A stretch of 64,000 nt of DNA from an uncultured Fodinibius sp. Its GTDB lineage: Bacteria; Bacteroidota; Rhodothermia; Balneolales; Balneolaceae. Numbering within the stretch: position 1 is the stretch's first letter; each line of letters opens with the position of its first letter. The notes beneath the pieces are model-generated. The model saw nothing but the letters and a program-made list of their open reading frames with translations. It was not told the origin of the DNA and made no database searches. Below are positions 53,564-64,000 of the stretch, piece by piece. Both the position numbers and the translations under genes were made by a program. The DNA is taken from positions 124,001-188,000 of the forward strand of contig CAJXOG010000005.1 of assembly GCA_913057775.1 (NCBI GenBank). Reading direction: 5' to 3'.

Positions 53564-54580
53564 ATGTCCAATAATAACAGCGACCAATTTCAAGAATATC
53601 ATCTGGAAGTTCCGGAAGAAGATACCTCGGGCACTCGTTTAGATAAATATCTGGCGTCGAAAATTGAAGATACCTCGCGGACAAAAATCCAGGAAGCCAT
53701 AAAGGAAGGATACATAACCGTTAACGGAAAAGAAGAAAAAGCATCCTATCCCGTGGAAGCCAGTGATGTTTTAGATGTCCGCATCCCCATCCCAAAACCG
53801 CCCGAAGCAAAACCCGAAGAGATGCCGCTGGATATTGTCTATGAGGATGATGATTTACTGCTCGTTAACAAAAGTGCCAATATGGTGGTTCATCCCGCGA
53901 AGGGAAACTGGACCGGTACCCTCGTTAATGGACTCATGTGGCATACCGATGAGCTTTCGGAACCGGAAGAAGATACCGTTCGACCCGGTATTGTCCACCG
54001 GCTGGATAAAGACACGAGCGGGCTTCTTGTTGTCGCCAAAAACGATAAGACGCATCGCATCCTCAGCGAATATTTTCGAACCAAAGATATTGAGCGTACT
54101 TACTGGGCCATTGTATGGGGTACTCCGGATGCAAAAGAAGAAACCCTTACGGGTGCCATCGGACGGGATCCGCATAACAGAAAACGGATGGCCGTAGTCC
54201 CGGATGATGAAGGCAAAAGTGCCACCACCCACTACAAGGTGCTTGAATATTTTGACCATCTGACTCTGCTCGAACTAAAACTGGAAACCGGCCGAACACA
54301 CCAAATTCGTGTACATCTTGCCGATAACAACCTGTGGGTTTTTGGGGATCAAAAATACGGCGGAGATTCGGTACGGTACGGACCCAATACCGGAAGTCGA
54401 AAACAGATGTTCCAAAACCTTTTCGCCTCACTGCAACGACAGTGTTTGCATGCTAAAACACTGGGATTTGAACATCCCTCCACGGGAGAAATGGTTGAAT
54501 TTGATTCCGATCTGCCTGGAGATTTTCAACAAGTCTTGGGGATGCTTCGACAAAATTGTAAGCCCACACATATTTATTAA
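53564..54580 (+). CDS. rluD: RluA-family ribosomal large subunit pseudouridine synthase D
   Basis: A 338-residue enzyme with an S4 domain (TRLDKYLASKIEDTSRTKIQEAI, about 20-80) and the catalytic domain. The active-site aspartate is in HRLDKDTSGLLVVAKN near 149, preceded by LLVNKSANMVVHPAKGN. TGRTHQIRVHL lies near 245. RluD-type enzymes modify uridines 1911/1915/1917 of 23S rRNA. Length is typical. It is a single gene with a short repeat and terminator behind it. Confidence 0.94.
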   Translation: MSNNNSDQFQEYHLEVPEEDTSGTRLDKYLASKIEDTSRTKIQEAIKEGYITVNGKEEKASYPVEASDVLDVRIPIPKPPEAKPEEMPLDIVYEDDDLLLVNKSANMVVHPAKGNWTGTLVNGLMWHTDELSEPEEDTVRPGIVHRLDKDTSGLLVVAKNDKTHRILSEYFRTKDIERTYWAIVWGTPDAKEETLTGAIGRDPHNRKRMAVVPDDEGKSATTHYKVLEYFDHLTLLELKLETGRTHQIRVHLADNNLWVFGDQKYGGDSVRYGPNTGSRKQMFQNLFASLQRQCLHAKTLGFEHPSTGEMVEFDSDLPGDFQQVLGMLRQNCKPTHIY

Positions 54581-54751: not shown

Positions 54752-57370
54752 TTAACTCTCGATATCAAAGCTCGCTTGTAATGCTGCTTCAATTCTTGAA
54801 ACAGACTCTTCTAAATGAGCTTGGGTATAATCGTTAAAATCATACGTCGGCGGTGCAAGACGAGCCTCTAACTGATTTTGTAACATTTGAAGCTGTTGTC
54901 GTGCTATTGAACGAGCATCCGCAGGCATGTCATCGGGAGCATCGGTTATCAGCTTCACCATTCGGTTCAGATGATTACGCTGTAAGTCCCGGCGATTAGT
55001 TTCAATATTTTGTCCGGGTGATGTAAGCACTTCTGACCAGATCGATTCCGTCAAGGCACTCATCAGTTCGGGTATGGTTACCGTATTTTCGGCACCGAAT
55101 TTAACTTCGGTATCCCGGATGCGCGACAATCGAATCGGATCTAACAGCTGCTCCAGCAATGAGCTCTGAATGCCTAACAGGGTTCCGTGCAGCGGATAGT
55201 CTACACGTCCGCCGTAGGTTGAACTATTGCCCCAGTGACTCCACCGATTAGCACCCATTTTCTGGAAGATATCCTGCGGCAATGTCATCGCATCCGCCGC
55301 AAAAGCATAATTCACGATCATATCCAGTGCTTCCTTTTGTTCCTTATAATCCACCGGCTCAAACGGCATGCGTCCATCGGGATCACCTACATGGTCACGA
55401 TATTGATGCTGACCGCCAATATATTTTACAGCCGGCGTTAACACACGGGCGTACTGATAGAGGTAACTTTGAAAAAGATCCGTCGCTTTAAAATATGGAG
55501 CATTGTCCTCTAATTTGATATCACTGATCTTGGGAATAAGTCCCTGTAATAATTGAGCACGTTCTTTTCCCCAGGCCAGCGGATCAGCACCCAAATCAAA
55601 TATGTTTACATGCGGATCTACTGCTCCAACTCCAAAGGCATCGCCATCGGTTCCATAGGCGTGACCGGGTTGTGCAGCCTGACGTGCTATCTGCCTGGCT
55701 TTTTCATCATCAGGCGTATATCCGTAGGAAATAACCCACCGATCATACGATCCTACTCCCGGATTATAGTAATAGGAGTCCTCTGATTTATCTTCGGGAT
55801 GAAGGTTAATGGAAGGATATTCCATGGCCGAGCTAAAGATCCCTTTCTCTTCTCCCCACTCCTTATCATAGAGTTTGTCAAGAGGTGTATCTATTGATGA
55901 GCGGAAGTTGTGACGAAGTCCCAAAGTATGACCTACCTCGTGCATAGTCACCCATTTCAAGGCCTGATCCACAAATTCTTTTGGCACCGGATCACCTGCT
56001 TTAATTTCTCCGTTTGCCAATAAGAAACTGTGAACTAAATCAAACTGAGCATTCATTTCGCTGTAAAAGGATTTTGTTTTTACTCCCTGACTCATCAGGG
56101 TCAACTCCTTATCGCTCACATTAAAAACCTCATCAATTGCAGAGCGCGGCTCAACCAAGTTACGGTAAGCATCCTTGTCTCCCAGCAACATACTTGCTTC
56201 AAAAAGGATATCTGCGTCCAGAATTTCTCCCGTTCGAGGATCTACCACCGAAGGACCTATGGCACCATAATAAGGCTGGTCGGAAGTACTCCAGCGAAGA
56301 GTCGGATAGCGAATATCTTCTGCCATTACGCTATCGGGCAACAACTTTGCCTGTACTGCATCTTTAAATCCTGCATCCTCAAATGCATCAGACCAAGCCT
56401 CAATACCGTCCATCATCGCATCACGATATTTTTCAGGTACTGTATGATCGATATAATAAGTGATCGGCTTTTGTGGGGTGCACAGTTCCCCTTCAGCCAC
56501 TTCTTCTTCACACTCAAGTCGCCAGCGATTTACATACCGTTTGAAAAAGTCGTCGGATTCTTTCGAAAAATCCTTGTGAACGGTCATAAAATAACCTGCT
56601 CGATCGTCGGCCATACGCGGCTCCATAGGCTCTTCAGGCAGCTTCACCATCGTATAGAACAGCGATAATGGAATATATCGACCATCAGCTACCGTTCGGG
56701 GAGCATTATCCTCAGCATTATTAAATGTAAGTTTAGCCTGAATATTTACGTTCTCGGGAAAGGCTTGTACCTTTTCGAGATGGGACCGGTTTTTATCAAA
56801 AGACACCCGACCCGGTCGTCCATTTTCACCCACGGCATATTTCAAGCGTTGGGAAATATTCGACAAATCGCCTACGAACCAGTCGTATACATTAACCAGC
56901 ATTTTCGAACTGTCGGCATTAAAAGCTTCCACTTTAGCCGTTTCCAGCACAGAGGTTCCATACGCAAGATTAAGTGCTTTTTCCAGCGCTTCATTTCCTC
57001 CGGCCGTATACCGGTGAGGGTGCTGGACCAACATCACTTTGCCTTCGTGCTTTTCAAGGGATACAACCATCCCCTCAAAAACAGATAGCATGCTTCCGCC
57101 GTAAAGTCCGGCTGCTCCAATACCGCGAGCAAGCTCAAAATTCATAAGGAACTGCTTGTCCAATTGATCTTTATCAACTGACAGATAGAGCTTATCATCC
57201 TTTTGATAAAAGTCGAAATAGCCTTCGTACTTGTCAGTATCTTTGGTCAGTTCCTCATACTTATTTTCCTGCTGAGCATCTTTTTTCTTTTTATCCACTG
57301 CCTGCTCTGTCGTAGAACATGCAGTAAATATCAATCCGATACACAGTAGCATCAGAAATGAGTGTTTCAT
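54752..57370 (-). CDS. Zinc-dependent metalloprotease lipoprotein (DUF5117/DUF4953-type)
   Basis: An 872-residue lipoprotein (MLLCIGLIFTAC). The zinc site HEVGHTLGLRHNF, near residues 480-492, is a metzincin HExxHxxGxxH motif with a catalytic glutamate. The amino half contains the DUF5117/DUF5118-type region (DKYEGYFDFYQKDDKLYLSV, ARGIGAAGLYGGS) and the later half the DUF4953-type one. Large outer-membrane metalloproteases of this kind are common in Bacteroidota and act on secreted or surface proteins. The substrate is unknown. Confidence 0.92.
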   Translation of the reverse strand: MKHSFLMLLCIGLIFTACSTTEQAVDKKKKDAQQENKYEELTKDTDKYEGYFDFYQKDDKLYLSVDKDQLDKQFLMNFELARGIGAAGLYGGSMLSVFEGMVVSLEKHEGKVMLVQHPHRYTAGGNEALEKALNLAYGTSVLETAKVEAFNADSSKMLVNVYDWFVGDLSNISQRLKYAVGENGRPGRVSFDKNRSHLEKVQAFPENVNIQAKLTFNNAEDNAPRTVADGRYIPLSLFYTMVKLPEEPMEPRMADDRAGYFMTVHKDFSKESDDFFKRYVNRWRLECEEEVAEGELCTPQKPITYYIDHTVPEKYRDAMMDGIEAWSDAFEDAGFKDAVQAKLLPDSVMAEDIRYPTLRWSTSDQPYYGAIGPSVVDPRTGEILDADILFEASMLLGDKDAYRNLVEPRSAIDEVFNVSDKELTLMSQGVKTKSFYSEMNAQFDLVHSFLLANGEIKAGDPVPKEFVDQALKWVTMHEVGHTLGLRHNFRSSIDTPLDKLYDKEWGEEKGIFSSAMEYPSINLHPEDKSEDSYYYNPGVGSYDRWVISYGYTPDDEKARQIARQAAQPGHAYGTDGDAFGVGAVDPHVNIFDLGADPLAWGKERAQLLQGLIPKISDIKLEDNAPYFKATDLFQSYLYQYARVLTPAVKYIGGQHQYRDHVGDPDGRMPFEPVDYKEQKEALDMIVNYAFAADAMTLPQDIFQKMGANRWSHWGNSSTYGGRVDYPLHGTLLGIQSSLLEQLLDPIRLSRIRDTEVKFGAENTVTIPELMSALTESIWSEVLTSPGQNIETNRRDLQRNHLNRMVKLITDAPDDMPADARSIARQQLQMLQNQLEARLAPPTYDFNDYTQAHLEESVSRIEAALQASFDIES

Positions 57371-57548: not shown

Positions 57549-57622
57549 GCGCCTGTAGCTCAACTGGATAGAGCACCTGATTACGGATCAGGAGGTTAGG
57601 GGTTCGAATCCTCTCAGGCGTA
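57549..57622 (+). tRNA. tRNA-Arg (anticodon ACG)
   Basis: A complete 74-base cloverleaf. Acceptor gcgcctg pairs with caggcgt with one G-U pair, D-arm gctc...gagc, anticodon stem cctga/tcagg with loop ttacgga giving anticodon ACG, and T-arm aggggttcgaatcctct. The CCA end is not encoded. A terminator follows directly and a likely genomic island lies beyond. The 3' half of such tRNA genes is a common integration target. Confidence 0.97.
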
Positions 57623-57626
57623 CAAT

Positions 57627-57672
57627 AAAAAAGCCGTAAAGTGAACAAATACAACACTTTATGGCTTTTTCT
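57627..57672 (+). terminator. Terminator of tRNA-Arg
   Basis: Stem aagccgtaaagtg / cactttatggctt with one mismatch, twelve bases of loop, and a T-run (ttttt) on the plus strand, beginning within six bases of the tRNA end. Confidence 0.75.
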
Positions 57673-57759
57673 ATTTTTGGATGGCAAACATACGGCAAAC
57701 ATTTTTTTGATTGCCATCAACTACTTAGATACTCGCAGAGATTTTTAATATTGGCTCAC

Positions 57760-58878
57760 TCAATTTTTAAAAGGTGGCTCTATATCAAAACCACTATTAA
57801 ACCCAATATTTTTTGGTTTATATTCCATTGACTCCACTCCGGAACCACAAATATCAGCCAAGGTCATAGGTTTATTGACAACTATATCCCGATCTAACAC
57901 TTCTGCTATCTTCTGGGCCCGATCCGGTTGAATTTTGGTAAACTCATGCATGCCCTTCAGTCTACCTTCCCGCAACAAGGCATCGTCAATAGTATTGAGT
58001 TCAGTATTAAACGTGCAGATAATCTTTAAATTTAGAAAATCAGCTAAGAAACCATCGGTTAGATTAAGTAGATTAGAGACGGCACTAGAGTTGTCTGCCT
58101 TTCGTTCCATAAGTACCGTCTCGGCATCTTCGATAACCAGGATTGAATCCGGGTAGTCCATCAGCAACGAAATAAGATCTGGAGATGTCAGGCTTTCGGT
58201 AAAAAACGGAGAAATAAACAGGGCCTGCTTGGATGTTTTACTGATCACATCCTTAATAAAACTTGTCTTGCCCGTACCGGGCTCTCCGTACATTAAATAA
58301 AGTCCACTCCCGTCTTTTGCATCTAATTGCCTGGTAACCTTTTCATGAAAGTCTCGGCTGTCGGAATCCAGATATTCTATGAGCGAATGTTCGGGAAGGG
58401 AATACTCAAAGGTTTGTACTCCTAATCCTGGTCCCCGACTAATAATGACTCCAATATTCTGCGTACCGCTTTTTTCCGACTTAAGGCTTAGAAAAAGCTC
58501 TTTGATCTCCTTGACTGTCTGCTGATCACTATTGACATCAAAAAGCATTACGACCATCCCATTTGTCTTGCAGAGCGTAATCCTGCTGTTCAAATATAGC
58601 AAGCTGTATGCTGCGACTTTGCCATCCTTAAGATGTTGTTCATCCTGAATATAGTTCTCCTTCTCCCATTCGCAGGTATCCAATATCTGCGTTAACACTT
58701 CGTCCCATTTCGCGTCGTTAAAATCACGAATTAATATTCGATTGGGTAGCAGGCCTGTTTTAATAATATGATAGTGCCCACCTATTCTGTATTCATGTTC
58801 TGTAACCTTTATTAAATGCTCTTTCTCCATGGTTTTTGCAATCTGATTTCTATTTACAACGCATTTGAAATCTAACAT
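57760..58878 (-). CDS. AAA ATPase, Bcs1-like core with unknown N-terminal region
   Basis: A 372-residue protein; an in-frame ATG at 58830 could also be the start, giving 356 residues. Residues 1-190 match nothing I recognise and have mixed alpha/beta character. The AAA core has Walker A MYGEPGTGKTSFIKD near 199-213, Walker B SILVIEDAETVL (Ile-Glu-Asp variant), sensor 1 CTFNTELNTIDDALL, and the arginine finger context REGRLKG, which fits the Bcs1-type AAA clade. No transmembrane helix is present. The gene is divergent from a WYL regulator, sharing a short control region. The function is unknown; a stress or anti-phage role is plausible by context only. Confidence 0.75.
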   Translation of the reverse strand: MLDFKCVVNRNQIAKTMEKEHLIKVTEHEYRIGGHYHIIKTGLLPNRILIRDFNDAKWDEVLTQILDTCEWEKENYIQDEQHLKDGKVAAYSLLYLNSRITLCKTNGMVVMLFDVNSDQQTVKEIKELFLSLKSEKSGTQNIGVIISRGPGLGVQTFEYSLPEHSLIEYLDSDSRDFHEKVTRQLDAKDGSGLYLMYGEPGTGKTSFIKDVISKTSKQALFISPFFTESLTSPDLISLLMDYPDSILVIEDAETVLMERKADNSSAVSNLLNLTDGFLADFLNLKIICTFNTELNTIDDALLREGRLKGMHEFTKIQPDRAQKIAEVLDRDIVVNKPMTLADICGSGVESMEYKPKNIGFNSGFDIEPPFKN

Positions 58879-58882
58879 ATCA

Positions 58883-58903
58883 AACCGTATTGTATATACG
58901 GTT
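58883..58903. promoter_or_regulatory. Inverted repeat, candidate operator for the WYL regulator
   Basis: The eight-base arms aaccgtat (58883-58890) and atacggtt (58896-58903) are perfect reverse complements with a five-base spacer. It lies in the shared gap between the divergent AAA ATPase and WYL genes, just before the ATPase start and 14 bases before the preferred WYL start at 58917. A WYL protein of this layout usually autoregulates its locus. Confidence 0.6.
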
Positions 58904-58916
58904 CAACAATTTTCTT

Positions 58917-59882
58917 ATGCCCATAAACAAAAACGCATACCTACGCTATCAAATCATCGATGAGTGTTTGACGAAACGATCGATGAAATACCCCTCCTCC
59001 GGAAAATTGATAGATGAAATCGAGCGAATTCTGGGCAAGCAGATAGCCAAGGAAACGCTCCAAAAAGACATCCGGGCCATGAAAAAGTCAGCCGAACTGG
59101 AATTTTACGCGCCTATTAAATATTCCAGAGCGCATGGCGGATACTATTATGACGATCCCAACTATACCATCAAGAAATTCCCGGTGGACTATGAAGAAAA
59201 AGAGTCGGCCGAGTTTGCCCTGACCCTGCTGAACCAAAGCGGATCGCTTCCGTATCTCAATCGGTTCAAAAACTTTGTGGAACGAGCGCTGACGTTTTCC
59301 AAAGTTGAAGGTCAACTACAGGATAACCTGTCCAAGTACATTCAGTTTGAAGAGCCGGTAGTCGTGGAAGGACTGCAATGGATCGAGCCGCTCGTTGACG
59401 CTATTCAACTGAAGCATGTCGTCCAAATCACCTACCACTCTATACGAAGTAAATTCTCAAAAGAGCGGGTACTGCACCCTTACTTTCTTAAAGAATATGA
59501 TGATCGCTGGTACGTCTACGGCTTCGACGAAAAATCTGAGGAGGAGCGTATATTTGGATTAGATCGTATTCAGCAGATGAGGCCCAGTAAAGAAAAAGAC
59601 TTTCGCTATTTTAGCGGAGATCGAGAAGAAATCTTCAAGCACACCATTGGGGTAAGCCGGTTTGTAGGTGACCCAAAGGAGATCAAACTCAGATTCTACT
59701 ATCCACAATCAGAATACATCTTGTCTAAACCAATTCATGAATCTCAAAAGGTAATTGATGAGGATGAAGAATCAATTACCGTAAAGCTCTATCTCCGGAT
59801 CAATTATGAGCTCAGGGCCCTAATTAGGAGCTATGGGGAGCAAGTAGAAGTAATCACGCCCAAAGAACTCTTACATAAATAA
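58917..59882 (+). CDS. WYL domain transcriptional regulator
   Basis: The start at 58917 is preferred as an ATG 27 bases upstream lies inside the operator-like repeat. The protein is about 321 residues. An amino-terminal helix-turn-helix (RYQIIDECLTKRSMKYPSSGKLIDEIE) is followed by a linker and the WYL domain. The domain carries QITYHSIRSKFSKERVLHPYFLKE near 185 and RWYVYGFDEKSEEERIFGLDRI near 215, and the conserved YFLKE...RWYVYG is the WYL signature. Such proteins bind DNA and sense nucleic acids or other ligands. They are common in defence islands, but also elsewhere. Confidence 0.88.
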   Translation: MPINKNAYLRYQIIDECLTKRSMKYPSSGKLIDEIERILGKQIAKETLQKDIRAMKKSAELEFYAPIKYSRAHGGYYYDDPNYTIKKFPVDYEEKESAEFALTLLNQSGSLPYLNRFKNFVERALTFSKVEGQLQDNLSKYIQFEEPVVVEGLQWIEPLVDAIQLKHVVQITYHSIRSKFSKERVLHPYFLKEYDDRWYVYGFDEKSEEERIFGLDRIQQMRPSKEKDFRYFSGDREEIFKHTIGVSRFVGDPKEIKLRFYYPQSEYILSKPIHESQKVIDEDEESITVKLYLRINYELRALIRSYGEQVEVITPKELLHK

Positions 59883-60128
59883 GTAATTACCACTCTTTTC
59901 GTCAATTGTATCATACTTCACTATTTGCTACTCGTTTTGTGTACCTCCCTTTCCTATTCAACATTATCAACTCATCAATTACTGTTCATCTATATAAGTT
60001 GAACTGGCACAACGTCGTCAGTGAATATTTGTAAATGGGGAATGTCATGACTATTTATTGAAAGAGTTACATATTCAAAAAAGCTAGGAATATCTAAAAG
60101 AACAGTAACTAAATAGAGAGGTATTACT
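59883..60128. other. AT-rich gap with no gene
   Basis: Nothing recognisable. It probably carries the promoter for the small membrane protein gene at 60129. Confidence 0.4.
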
Positions 60129-60296
60129 ATGTACTTTACCATTGGTGCAGTCTTCTGCATTGGGTTTGTAATTGGGATGGCCTTTGGTATGGTGCGAGGA
60201 AAAAAAGAACTTGCCGCTGACCTTAGACAACGTATGAGCAACTTTGAGAAGGATGTGCAAAATCAATTGAATGATCTCCTAGAAAGGGAAACCTGA
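60129..60296 (+). CDS. Small single-pass membrane protein
   Basis: A 55-residue frame from ATG to tga. Residues 2-21 form one hydrophobic segment (YFTIGAVFCIGFVIGMAFGM), followed by a basic turn (VRGKKE) and a helical, charged tail (DLRQRMSNFEKDVQNQL) that could form a coiled coil. The layout resembles YtxH-like or phage-island membrane proteins. AG-rich sequence agagagg lies 9 bases before the ATG, a good ribosome-binding site. It is too short for ordinary gene calling. Function unknown. Confidence 0.6.
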   Translation: MYFTIGAVFCIGFVIGMAFGMVRGKKELAADLRQRMSNFEKDVQNQLNDLLERET

Positions 60297-60374
60297 AGTA
60301 TGACATCAAGAGCTGAAATTAAACTTCAATTTCTATTCTTTAGTCAACTAATATCAAATTTATAAACTAATAGT

Positions 60375-61754
60375 ATGGCTAGTTTAAAAGAGCAGAATGA
60401 CCACTTAAATATCTTCCATTTTTACGGAAATAATGATGAGCAATATTATGAAAACAATCTTACTAGGGGCCTTGCCATATGCCTAGAAAATGACGCTGTA
60501 TTACTGGATCGTTTTTTGCGAAACGTAATTAACAAAACAGAGAATAAAATATTCCCAATACAAGAAATTCGTATTAATGTCCAAAAGAAGGCCAGCCAAC
60601 TTACAAACATTGATAAGCTTATAGGCGTCGCAATGACAGCAGAAGAGTTATCGGAAAAGTCTCCAGACAAATCAATTGAAACAGGTAATCCTGTAACAGA
60701 TTTAACTATACAAATCAACGATACTCTAATTGTTATTGAGGTAAAGAAAAACAAGCAAGATTGTAGAGCCCAGCTCATCAATCAATTAGAGAGGATTGCT
60801 AAAATAAATGAATTGCCTTCTACAGAATTTGAACCTATTAACTATTCTTGGGAGGATGTAATGGCTTTGATAAGAAACACATTGAAATTTCAAAAGAACA
60901 TCAATTCTAAAAACCGTTTTACGGATGACTATTATCAATTTATTAAAAGAAAACATCCTGCCTGGTTGGGTGCAATAAAACTAAATGAAATTAGATTCCC
61001 CAAGAATTTAGAAAATGATACTATAGAGTCTACACAAAAAGAATTGATTGAGGTTAGACTAAACGTTCTAAAAAAGAAGATTCTAGAATCATGGAATAAA
61101 GAAAAAGGGTTAAACCAAGAACTAGTCTATGAGCGTGCAAACCTTCCAGTTTCAGAATATAGTTGGGTGGATGAAGTTAGTATCGAACCTGAAACTAATG
61201 GAAATAATTACATAGCAATCAAAATATGGCCAGGTGATACCAAAACACAAGGATACTCAATTTTTAATACTAACAGGCCTTTTGAATGGCCTAAAAGGAT
61301 TGAAGGTTCAGATTTTAGAGTAATACCCTATATTAAATTCGCTCATAGGCAGGGGCTTTGCTGGATTAATTTAAAAGATAAGTCTAACCCCATTACTCAT
61401 ACTGGGGACTTTTTCTATAAGTATACAGGTAAATGGAACCGAGATGAGGCTAACCCAAACCAGTGGATACATCAAGGCGCCAATTGGTCAGAATTTAATA
61501 ATATTCTGAAAGATATTACACCAGGTGGAGATTGGAAAAAAATCTCAGGGTGGGATGACAAGATTCAAGATTCTAATCGAAGCTTTTTTAACATTTCTGT
61601 AGGATTTGCTATAAGTGTTCTTTTAAAATATAAACAAGCCCAAAAACTAGATGGAGATTCTACCACCCACCACTATCCACTTGCAGAAAAACTTAAAACA
61701 ACTTCAGAAAAACTACTAGAAAAAGTAAACAATCAATTCAATGGTAAAAACTAA
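60375..61754 (+). CDS. Uncharacterised protein with PD-(D/E)XK nuclease-like motif
   Basis: A 459-residue protein without a clear family. At about residues 112-131 the pattern TDLTIQIND followed by LIVIEVKK fits the D...E-x-K core of PD-(D/E)XK nucleases (aspartate in TDLTI, ExK in IEVKK), and an upstream glutamate may complete it. The amino-terminal DEQYYENNLTRGLAICLEND resembles the helical lead of several such proteins. The carboxy-terminal 200 residues have mixed alpha/beta character with aromatic and Trp-rich strands and no known motif. The coding sequence is visibly AT-rich. No methyltransferase is next to it. Confidence 0.6.
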   Translation: MASLKEQNDHLNIFHFYGNNDEQYYENNLTRGLAICLENDAVLLDRFLRNVINKTENKIFPIQEIRINVQKKASQLTNIDKLIGVAMTAEELSEKSPDKSIETGNPVTDLTIQINDTLIVIEVKKNKQDCRAQLINQLERIAKINELPSTEFEPINYSWEDVMALIRNTLKFQKNINSKNRFTDDYYQFIKRKHPAWLGAIKLNEIRFPKNLENDTIESTQKELIEVRLNVLKKKILESWNKEKGLNQELVYERANLPVSEYSWVDEVSIEPETNGNNYIAIKIWPGDTKTQGYSIFNTNRPFEWPKRIEGSDFRVIPYIKFAHRQGLCWINLKDKSNPITHTGDFFYKYTGKWNRDEANPNQWIHQGANWSEFNNILKDITPGGDWKKISGWDDKIQDSNRSFFNISVGFAISVLLKYKQAQKLDGDSTTHHYPLAEKLKTTSEKLLEKVNNQFNGKN

Positions 61755-61988
61755 CCTCCCACAAAAAATCGAGACTTTTAAATAGGATTTCATATCAGGT
61801 ATTTCTTCAAACCCCGAATATGCCATTCTAAGCCTTCTGAGGGGGTTATTGCAAATTTCCTTTTTAAGAGGATATCTCGACCATCTTAATGGTATACCAT
61901 TGGCATTTTTAGATTAAAATAATTCTTCATTGAAAATATCTCTGATAATCACTCAAATCGACTCGTATCTTGTAACCGATACTGAATC

Positions 61989-64000
61989 CTATCGAACTTT
62001 CACAAATAATTCTGTGGGTGTTTGGCTACCCTTTATTTTTGGATTTGCTTCTATAACTTGTTTAGCCTCTTGGTCCAAACCTGCCTGACCAGAATTTGCA
62101 TAACTAAATTCAAATTCATCTTTTCTAATACTCGAAGATCTCCTTGATCTCGAAACCCTCCAGTAGCCAACTCCTTGATCTAAGCGAACTGTTAGCTCAC
62201 TGCTATTAGAGAACTCTACTTGAAGTGCTCTACTATGCTGAATTGATCTTCTATCAGGTATCAGCAAATCAACTTCAAAATTCGACATCTTGAATGCCTT
62301 CTTCAGCACATAATCTCGATCCTCACAATCTACCCAGTCACTATAAATTTTGTTTCCAGGTCGTGAATTGTCGTATCTTTTAGAACTAGTTATTATTGAC
62401 ACCTCATTTGCTTGCCATCTATTCATCCCAAATATTGACCTCAGACCTTTTAGCAATTCTAATGTGAGGGCAACAGATAATGGATTAAATAAATAACGAT
62501 CCCGGTATTTAACACTTACAACCTTTATATCCTTTGCACCAAATAATTGTGCACTCTGTCTGTGCTCTTCTTCAACAAGCTGCCAAAACTGATCACCAAA
62601 AGCTTTTAAGTTTCCATCTAAATCATGATGGACCACAATTTCCCTATCTGATTTATTTTCAATAACTGGTCGCATTTCTCCTGCCGAAACAGAATCATAG
62701 CCATCAAAAGTATTATCGATAAAACCATTTATAATTGCATTTTCTGAATGCCCCCATGTTTCATTGGGGCTTAATATATCTTTAGAGTTCGTAGCCCAGG
62801 CAGTTTTAATATCTTTTTTATGTACAACTGCAATAATATTTCCACCTCCTTTTTTAGGTAGTTCAGGTGCTTGATATACCTTTACTTTATCATGATCACA
62901 TAAACTAGCCAAGGAATAAGAGTCTTCTTCAGACAGATTATCTAATAAATCTTTTTCAAAAACTAGCTTAACATTAACAGACTGACCAACCAACTTATAG
63001 GAAAGTGACCTCAATGCGGAAATTGGGATGTCAGAATTCTCAGGACTACCACCAGCAAATAACATCGCTGTGTGACCATTTTGCTTTCTTGTTTCTCTAA
63101 TAATTGCTGTTTGTAAATCATCTTTCTCAACTCTTGAATCTTCGCCAAAGAATGACAACTTAATCGGCAGTTTTAGATTCTTTAACCACTTTTGAGTCAA
63201 AAACTGTAACCCTTTCTTTCGATCCAAATCATCCGAACGAAAACGTTGGTCAAAATCCAGGATACATTGTGGACAGTTAGAGTTACAGTGATTCGGACAC
63301 TGTAACTTTCTGAATGCTTTATGAAACATTTTGTTAATTAAGTGGTTAGCTTTTGACGCATACCCAGAAGCGTATTTATCAAAAATTAAAATAGAAGTTG
63401 TGATATAACCTTTTTTTGTTTTGTCCTCCTTAATATCACAACTCAATTCAGACTCTTGAATACCGAGTAATTCAGCTAATGCATCTCTTAATGCTACTGC
63501 TAGAGTAGAAGCTATTGTTTTATCGGTCAACCATTGACCATCAATATCTTTTAACTGTATTTCTAAAATATCTGTACTTAACTGGTGACCTAGTCTAATA
63601 TTCTTTTTAACAGCCCAGCTGCTGTGACTTCCAGGACACTCCTTATTATCCTTGCTACTCCTTAGTTTGTTATGTGTGCTCCCTTCTTCAAACTTTTTAG
63701 GTAAAGAGCCATCTGAATCCATCGGCTCAGCTCTTCCACACATCATGCAAAGAGCATACCCCTCTTTATTAATTCCTGATGAATGATGAAATATCTGACC
63801 ATTACTTGTTGACCTGAATCTACCAAGATTGGGATTAGTCAATGGAGCCCATGCCCCTTCAGCTTGAATCCATGGTTTTTCTATAGGAATAAATTTTTGA
63901 GATGTAATGTCATTATGCGGAGTATCATAAAAGTCTACCGAAAAACCAGAAGGCTCTAAATATTCGACAGCGTTAATAGATTTAATTTGGTTACCACAGC
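61989..64000 (-). CDS. C-terminal part of a zinc-cluster (DUF1998/MZB-like) protein with a PLD/MIT_C-like tail (5' partial)
   Basis: The frame is open to the window edge, so at least 670 residues are visible and the amino terminus lies beyond 64000. A start at 63842 would be a TTG inside the frame. The first visible residues (CGNQ) may belong to a zinc ribbon, followed by LCMMCGRAEP, KECPGSHSSW, and near the middle CPNHCNSNCPQCILDFDQRF, as in DUF1998/MZB domains of MrfA-, DrmB- or DpdJ-like proteins. GHQLSTDILEIQL also fits. The last 200 residues (VVSVKYRDRYLFNPLSVA and HSRALQVEF...RLDQGVGYW) resemble a PLD/MIT_C fold. Helicase motifs, if any, are outside the window. This could be part of a defence system. 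Confidence 0.6.
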   Translation of the reverse strand, partial: CGNQIKSINAVEYLEPSGFSVDFYDTPHNDITSQKFIPIEKPWIQAEGAWAPLTNPNLGRFRSTSNGQIFHHSSGINKEGYALCMMCGRAEPMDSDGSLPKKFEEGSTHNKLRSSKDNKECPGSHSSWAVKKNIRLGHQLSTDILEIQLKDIDGQWLTDKTIASTLAVALRDALAELLGIQESELSCDIKEDKTKKGYITTSILIFDKYASGYASKANHLINKMFHKAFRKLQCPNHCNSNCPQCILDFDQRFRSDDLDRKKGLQFLTQKWLKNLKLPIKLSFFGEDSRVEKDDLQTAIIRETRKQNGHTAMLFAGGSPENSDIPISALRSLSYKLVGQSVNVKLVFEKDLLDNLSEEDSYSLASLCDHDKVKVYQAPELPKKGGGNIIAVVHKKDIKTAWATNSKDILSPNETWGHSENAIINGFIDNTFDGYDSVSAGEMRPVIENKSDREIVVHHDLDGNLKAFGDQFWQLVEEEHRQSAQLFGAKDIKVVSVKYRDRYLFNPLSVALTLELLKGLRSIFGMNRWQANEVSIITSSKRYDNSRPGNKIYSDWVDCEDRDYVLKKAFKMSNFEVDLLIPDRRSIQHSRALQVEFSNSSELTVRLDQGVGYWRVSRSRRSSSIRKDEFEFSYANSGQAGLDQEAKQVIEANPKIKGSQTPTELFVKVR

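Follow-up and report, generated by a model that had tools for sequence, protein, structure and literature searches.

A probable integrative defence island with Druantia type III and type I restriction–modification cargo at a tRNA-Arg gene of Fodinibius

We analysed a 64,000-nucleotide stretch of an uncultured Fodinibius genome (G000; 3.1 Mb in 21 contigs), referred to throughout as the window (G000:C5:124001-188000), in which a tRNA-Arg(ACG) gene separates housekeeping genes from the left end of what is very probably an integrative defence island, here called island A. Contig C5, whose coordinates equal those of the window plus 124000, ends at C5:217176, 29 kb beyond the window, so that the far end of the island is also readable. 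Island A occupies C5:181611-217112 (window 57611 onward), about 35.5 kb, and the window covers its left end (Table 1). A preliminary description of the window, made from its letters without database searches, had placed a possible island edge at this tRNA, with housekeeping genes before it and an AAA ATPase, a WYL regulator, a small membrane protein, a PD-(D/E)XK-like protein and a DUF1998/MZB-like protein after it. This arrangement was borne out: ARAGORN recognized the tRNA, rluD and a metalloprotease-like gene precede it, and the five genes that follow are as named, with the WYL regulator recognized by Pfam and PD-(D/E)XK motifs present in the 459-amino-acid (aa) protein, here called U459. 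One correction concerns the DUF1998/MZB-like protein, for which the domain had been read correctly but the open reading frame (ORF) is only the C-terminal third of the 2073-aa DruE protein.

Table 1. Features at the left end of island A and in the adjoining chromosome, in window coordinates
Feature	Position	Strand	Basis
rluD, upstream of the tRNA	53564-54580		
Metalloprotease-like gene, 872 aa, upstream of the tRNA	54752-57370		
tRNA-Arg(ACG), putative integration target, 3′ end restored by the island	57549-57623	+	ARAGORN
attL core CTCTCAGGCGTAC, last 13 bases of the tRNA	57611-57623 (C5:181611-181623)	+	
Hairpin, then T-run, directly after the tRNA on the island side	57633-57665	+	By sequence
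Direct repeat like arm-type integrase sites, GGCAAACAT-AC-GGCAAACA	57683-57701	+	Whole-genome pattern search
AAA ATPase, 372 aa, Walker A GEPGTGKT	57760-58878	-	Pfam AAA, E=3e-11
Putative WYL operator, palindrome between the divergent AAA and WYL genes	58883-58903		
WYL-WCX transcriptional regulator	58917-59882	+	Pfam WYL, 2e-16; WCX, 1e-8
Small ORF, 55 aa, one membrane segment by inspection	60129-60296	+	
U459, 459-aa PD-(D/E)XK-type nuclease candidate	60375-61754	+	Motifs, AF2 model
DruE, C-terminal part (MZB/DUF1998 ORF), cut by the window edge	61989-64000	-	PADLOC PDLC00037 DruE3

The island is bounded by a short repeat of the tRNA 3′ end. The left attachment site (attL) has its core in the tRNA itself, and the second copy of the tRNA 3′ end that the preliminary description had looked for past the window, as the right attachment site (attR), lies at C5:217100-217112, 35.5 kb from attL. 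This sequence is the sole 13-mer common to the 500 bp on the tRNA side and the far end of the island. Just within both ends is a direct repeat of arm type, GGCAAACATACGGCAAACA at C5:181683 with its partner GCCCAACATGTGGCCAACA at C5:216978-216996, which occurs in exactly two places in the 3.1-Mb genome at up to one mismatch (control, 0). Base composition also changes, from 43.3% GC for the window before the tRNA to 37.1% for the whole island. The earlier report of higher AT content from about 59900 was correct as to the drop in GC (35.1% in 60001-64000, with each 4-kb stretch ahead of the tRNA within 40.4%-46.9%) and as to where the change is sharpest, but the boundary itself is the tRNA 3′ end at 57611-57623. 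To the right of attR, C5 holds just 64 bp, which are identical to the DNA after a 45-bp tRNA-Arg fragment on another contig (C3:280671-280715) and which this match identifies as the right chromosomal flank. Accessory genes next to tRNAs are common and 13 bp is short, so we also considered fixed accessory genes with a repeat that arose by chance. This reading is barely credible: by our own calculation, chance would place a given 13-mer in 36 kb, counting both strands, about 0.001 times, and the repeat is backed by the arm-type repeats, the shared right flank and the absence of the island in relatives.

Part of the cargo is a Druantia system. The whole druE gene (C5:185989-192210) is intact, with the ORF in the window encoding residues 1405-2073, and druH (C5:192212-195562, 1116 aa) lies outside the window on the same minus strand; the two genes are one base apart and have no internal stop. 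DruE matches the DruE3 profile over residues 1-2071 with 2356 bits (DruE1, 628; DruE2, 422; DruE4, 385), and its helicase motifs are intact (GTGSGKT at 120, DEAH at 253, SAT at 290 and QRAGRAGR at 1092); it also has an MrfA-like zinc module (Pfam MZB, E=7e-9; CxxC pairs). A canonical HxKx4D phospholipase D (PLD) motif was not found in DruE; the DruE3 profile match spans the C-terminal region. DruH matches DruH3 (PDLC00049) over its length at E=7e-117 and belongs to the YjiT family (NCBIfam YjiT_fam, E=8e-182; 607 bits against a cut-off of 150). Judged by these profile matches, DruH–DruE is a complete Druantia type III system. For such systems, DruE has been described as a YprA-like helicase-nuclease that forms dimers and is loaded onto 3′ single-stranded DNA, and DruH as a likely sensor with a dimerization-dependent nuclease (PMC13192584); in Mycolicibacterium, Druantia III inhibits phage DNA circularization and replication (PMC13316683). 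The two studies, both from 2026, disagree on whether DruH and DruE bind each other stably.

After druE and druH come a short hsdS, hsdM, hsdS, a 133-aa ORF, hsdR and a YgjP-like metallopeptidase gene, followed by a zinc-finger-like gene, a Prim-Pol/D5 primase gene, an HTH_17 gene, a 312-aa gene and a tyrosine recombinase gene, and lastly by a gene for a helix–turn–helix (HTH)-dynamin-like protein, small genes and a coiled-coil NYN RNase-like gene. The type I restriction–modification (RM) operon was recognized by PADLOC (hsdM and hsdS) and Pfam (hsdR). The preliminary description had called the cargo defence-like but of unknown kind; defence cargo it is (DruE–DruH and type I RM), and the second part of the phrase falls away, since most of it is known. 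The tyrosine recombinase that had been sought beyond 64000 is encoded at C5:208242-209486, with an Arm, a SAM-like and a catalytic domain. At the right end of the island (C5:209656-216853), one gene fuses an HTH to a dynamin-like GTPase, with a weak LeoA/LeoBC match, and another encodes the coiled-coil NYN RNase-like protein; the small genes of this segment have no matches. These right-end genes are possible further defence genes.

The position of the recombinase inside the island raises the alternative of a composite, in which WYL/AAA, U459, Druantia and RM form one element and the recombinase–primase module an adjacent one, whose recombinase did not import the Druantia part. Cargo does move between element types, because WYL/AAA and the Druantia core accompany other recombinases in two relatives (G009 and G004, respectively; G-numbers denote relatives' genomes). 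Even so, we consider a composite improbable: between its two ends, island A was found to hold no further copy of the tRNA 3′ end and no direct repeat of more than 16 bp able to serve as a second attachment site, and the arm-type repeats stand at the two outer ends only.

In relatives, rluD and the 872-aa metalloprotease-like gene also flank tRNA-Arg(ACG) (both in G002, G003, G005, G008 and G011; rluD in G009), and no relative in which the tRNA-Arg(ACG) locus was read carries the island A block there. What comes after the tRNA varies between genomes. In G003 it is an element of the type of island B, a second island of G000 that lies on contig C3 and is described below, with an integrase 96% identical to that on C3; the sequence after the tRNA in G005 likewise opens as a B-type element. 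G009 has an integrase next to the tRNA and WYL/AAA cargo, with a different recombinase type, and G008 has RM-like cargo. In G002, two elements with integrases of separate types stand in tandem (C1:470582-569000, L065-L070); the order is an element of about 8.3 kb, a 45-bp tRNA fragment, about 90 kb that include a B-type integrase, a further tRNA fragment and a similar right flank. A gene order conserved across the family without any flanking repeat, or an unbroken composition, had been named as contrary to an island; instead, the block is missing from this tRNA in the relatives, DruH is found in 2 of the 92 genomes of the family survey (G000 and G004), and the break in GC is present. The G004 island has the same core, comprising WYL, DruE (54%), DruH (35%), type I RM, zinc-finger and HTH genes, but at a different tRNA with its own 3′-end repeat and a different recombinase. 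Conversely, an element beside tRNA-Arg(TCG) in G021 has a recombinase 47% identical to that of island A, an HTH gene 67% identical and other cargo; it shares the left-end sequence, and in the alignment both the hairpin with its T-run and the left arm-type repeat are conserved.

Our reading, to which we give a probability of about 0.92, is that the window reaches into an integrative defence island of 35.5 kb, covering its left end, and that this island carries Druantia III and type I RM and was put in by its own tyrosine recombinase. Three points weigh against it: the recombinase gene is not directly at an end but 7.6 kb from attR and 26.6 kb from attL; the right flank past attR amounts to 64 bp on C5 and is recognized through the match to C3; and the G021 element shows no attR in the stretch fetched. 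The ends, the repeats and the recombinase gene are observed directly, as are the intact DruE and DruH genes with their motifs and the conservation of the operator described below; we infer the mobility of the island, the use of the C5:208242-209486 recombinase at these sites and the activities of the proteins. As such, island A is a well-bounded new example of a known thing, and no new kind of system.

In the mechanism that we propose, the recombinase would have recombined attP with the final 13 bases of tRNA-Arg(ACG); the tRNA would thereby stay whole at the left, with 13 bp of its 3′ end duplicated at the right. The cargo brought in this way would comprise the WYL/AAA pair, the PD-(D/E)XK protein, DruH–DruE, type I RM, a P4/Prim-Pol-type primase with an excisionase-like HTH protein, the HTH-dynamin-like protein and the NYN RNase. 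Type I RM would cut unmodified incoming DNA early, and Druantia III would act later, on replicating phage DNA, with DruH sensing infection and contributing nuclease activity and the DruE helicase-nuclease loading on 3′ single-stranded DNA (mechanism from PMC13192584 and PMC13316683). The WYL protein would bind the palindrome next to its gene and control the WYL/AAA pair.

That palindrome, AACCGTAT-N5-ATACGGTT, shows no mismatch in G000 or G009 and a single one in G004, with the surrounding DNA differing; no other copy occurs in the G000 genome at up to one mismatch, and two-mismatch matches across that genome are near the control level. By analogy with BrxR-type regulators, it is a putative autoregulatory operator of the WYL protein, and it probably controls the WYL/AAA pair only. 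We also considered the WYL protein as controller of the whole island, a role that is unsupported: the 14-base pattern has no second site in the island with fewer than three mismatches. The regulator probably starts at ATG 58917, though its ORF is readable from 58890, and is 80% identical in G009 and 75% in G004; the AAA ATPase is 60% identical in G009, and its relatives adjoin WYL and/or RM genes in G009, G012, G014 and G236.

U459, which lies beside druE and 10 kb from the RM operon, is a candidate nuclease of defence islands on the basis of its motifs and predicted fold. Across 23 sequences of the family, residues E26, D109, E122-x-K124, Q133 and Q137 do not vary. In an AlphaFold2 (AF2) model (pLDDT 80), the secondary-structure elements around them follow the alpha-beta-beta-beta-alpha-beta succession of a PD-(D/E)XK core. 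The model had no matches in the PDB at E<=0.001, and the U459 query none in Pfam, NCBIfam or PADLOC; among its relatives, PDDEXK_4 matched one of five (E=0.045), and the PADLOC candidate PDC-M15A weakly matched one of the 23 (E=4.7e-5). Scanning GTDB contigs with the single sequence returned no relatives, and an alignment query found 42 loci, mainly in Bacteroidota and gammaproteobacteria, with about 46% identity in G236 and 28-31% elsewhere. Type I RM genes lie within 10 kb at 22 of 40 of these loci, and the gene is often inside the operon. At L105, L106, L107, L111, L118, L125 and L127, two hsdM-like genes bracket it within type I RM operons. At further loci the genes run WYL, hsdM-like, response-regulator-like, hsdM, hsdS, nuclease candidate and hsdR, an arrangement that looks like a recurrent composite RM system.

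Island B occupies about 69 kb of G000 (C3:280716-349909, L029-L033), between a copy of tRNA-Arg(ACG) and the 45-bp tRNA fragment. An integrase gene of its own adjoins the tRNA, repeats of the GTAGTACC type mark both ends, and the island is unrelated to island A. The last 77 bp of C5 lie within C3, in the right flank, and C3 terminates in the 5′ end of a tRNA-Arg(ACG) that is identical to the C5 copy over 76 bp. Because 13 other contig ends in the assembly overlap by exactly 77 bp, this figure is very probably the word length of the assembler, and the end of C5 a branch in the assembly graph; the overlap of 76 bp at the end of C3 is one short of 77, which a link dropped at such a branch could explain. 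Neither flank, left or right, occurs a second time in the assembly, and we therefore rejected the idea that A and B occupy separate copies of the tRNA locus. Given the overlaps at the ends of C3 and C5, A and B therefore appear to be joined to the same left and right flanks. This suggests alternative or dynamic occupancy, and the assembly agrees best with a mixed population in which some cells have A at the site and others B. A tentative and rather doubtful extension is that A, with its Druantia III and RM, and B alternate at tRNA-Arg(ACG), exchanging the immune repertoire within a strain or population, and that U459 is an uncharacterized defence gene working with type I RM or Druantia. Alternatively, A and B could be in tandem in one tRNA, like the elements of G002, where the array at the same tRNA-Arg(ACG) is genuine, and excision products could then mimic alternative occupancy. 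This is a possibility on which we would likewise not rely: the tandem junctions A-core-B and B-fragment-A are both missing from the assembly, C5 passes from A directly into the right flank, and C3 starts B at a full tRNA.

Within island B, a GC-rich (about 52%), one-directional block of genes (C3:307683-327561; L031, L032) encodes a 2415-aa DarB-like helicase/methyltransferase, a 434-aa P-loop protein and a transglycosylase; most of its genes tested had no PHROG match, and it is possibly an integrated virus of unusual type. Elsewhere in the genome, tRNA-Arg(TCG) (C9:432-507, L003) and a 40-bp copy of its 3′ part (C8:109617-109656, L006) each lie near GTTACCCAAATGTTACCCAAAT repeats, pointing to another island at a second tRNA-Arg.

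What began as a vague island edge is thus a fully bounded element with attachment sites, arm-type sites, a recombinase and named cargo, including a Druantia III system that is rare in the family. It also provides a concrete putative WYL operator and a family of nuclease candidates that recurs beside type I restriction systems, and it marks one tRNA-Arg in the genus as a recurrent docking site for different cargos.

In comparison with known systems, the Druantia genes resemble characterized type III systems (PMC13192584, PMC13316683) in being two adjacent genes with full-length profile matches, a YjiT-family DruH and a DruE with DEAH-type superfamily 2 (SF2) helicase motifs and an MrfA-like zinc-binding module; they differ from the reference in adjoining a type I RM operon, and no Zorya genes were recognized in the island. 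The hsdS, hsdM, hsdS and hsdR genes share one direction, as is usual for type I RM, but a short, 194-aa, single-domain hsdS is added to the full one. Like the BrxR-type regulators (PMC9122601, PMC9122589), the WYL-WCX protein is encoded at a defence-island edge, and a palindrome lies just upstream of its gene; unlike in those cases, the divergent partner is an AAA ATPase and not BREX, the WYL domain is recognized by Pfam only, and binding is putative. Island A as a whole follows the pattern of tRNA-targeting islands with defence cargo at hotspots, for example in E. coli (PMC10121019), in its tyrosine recombinase, tRNA 3′-end repeat and variable cargo at a fixed site, and departs from those hotspots in that two unrelated islands are tied to one site in one assembly.

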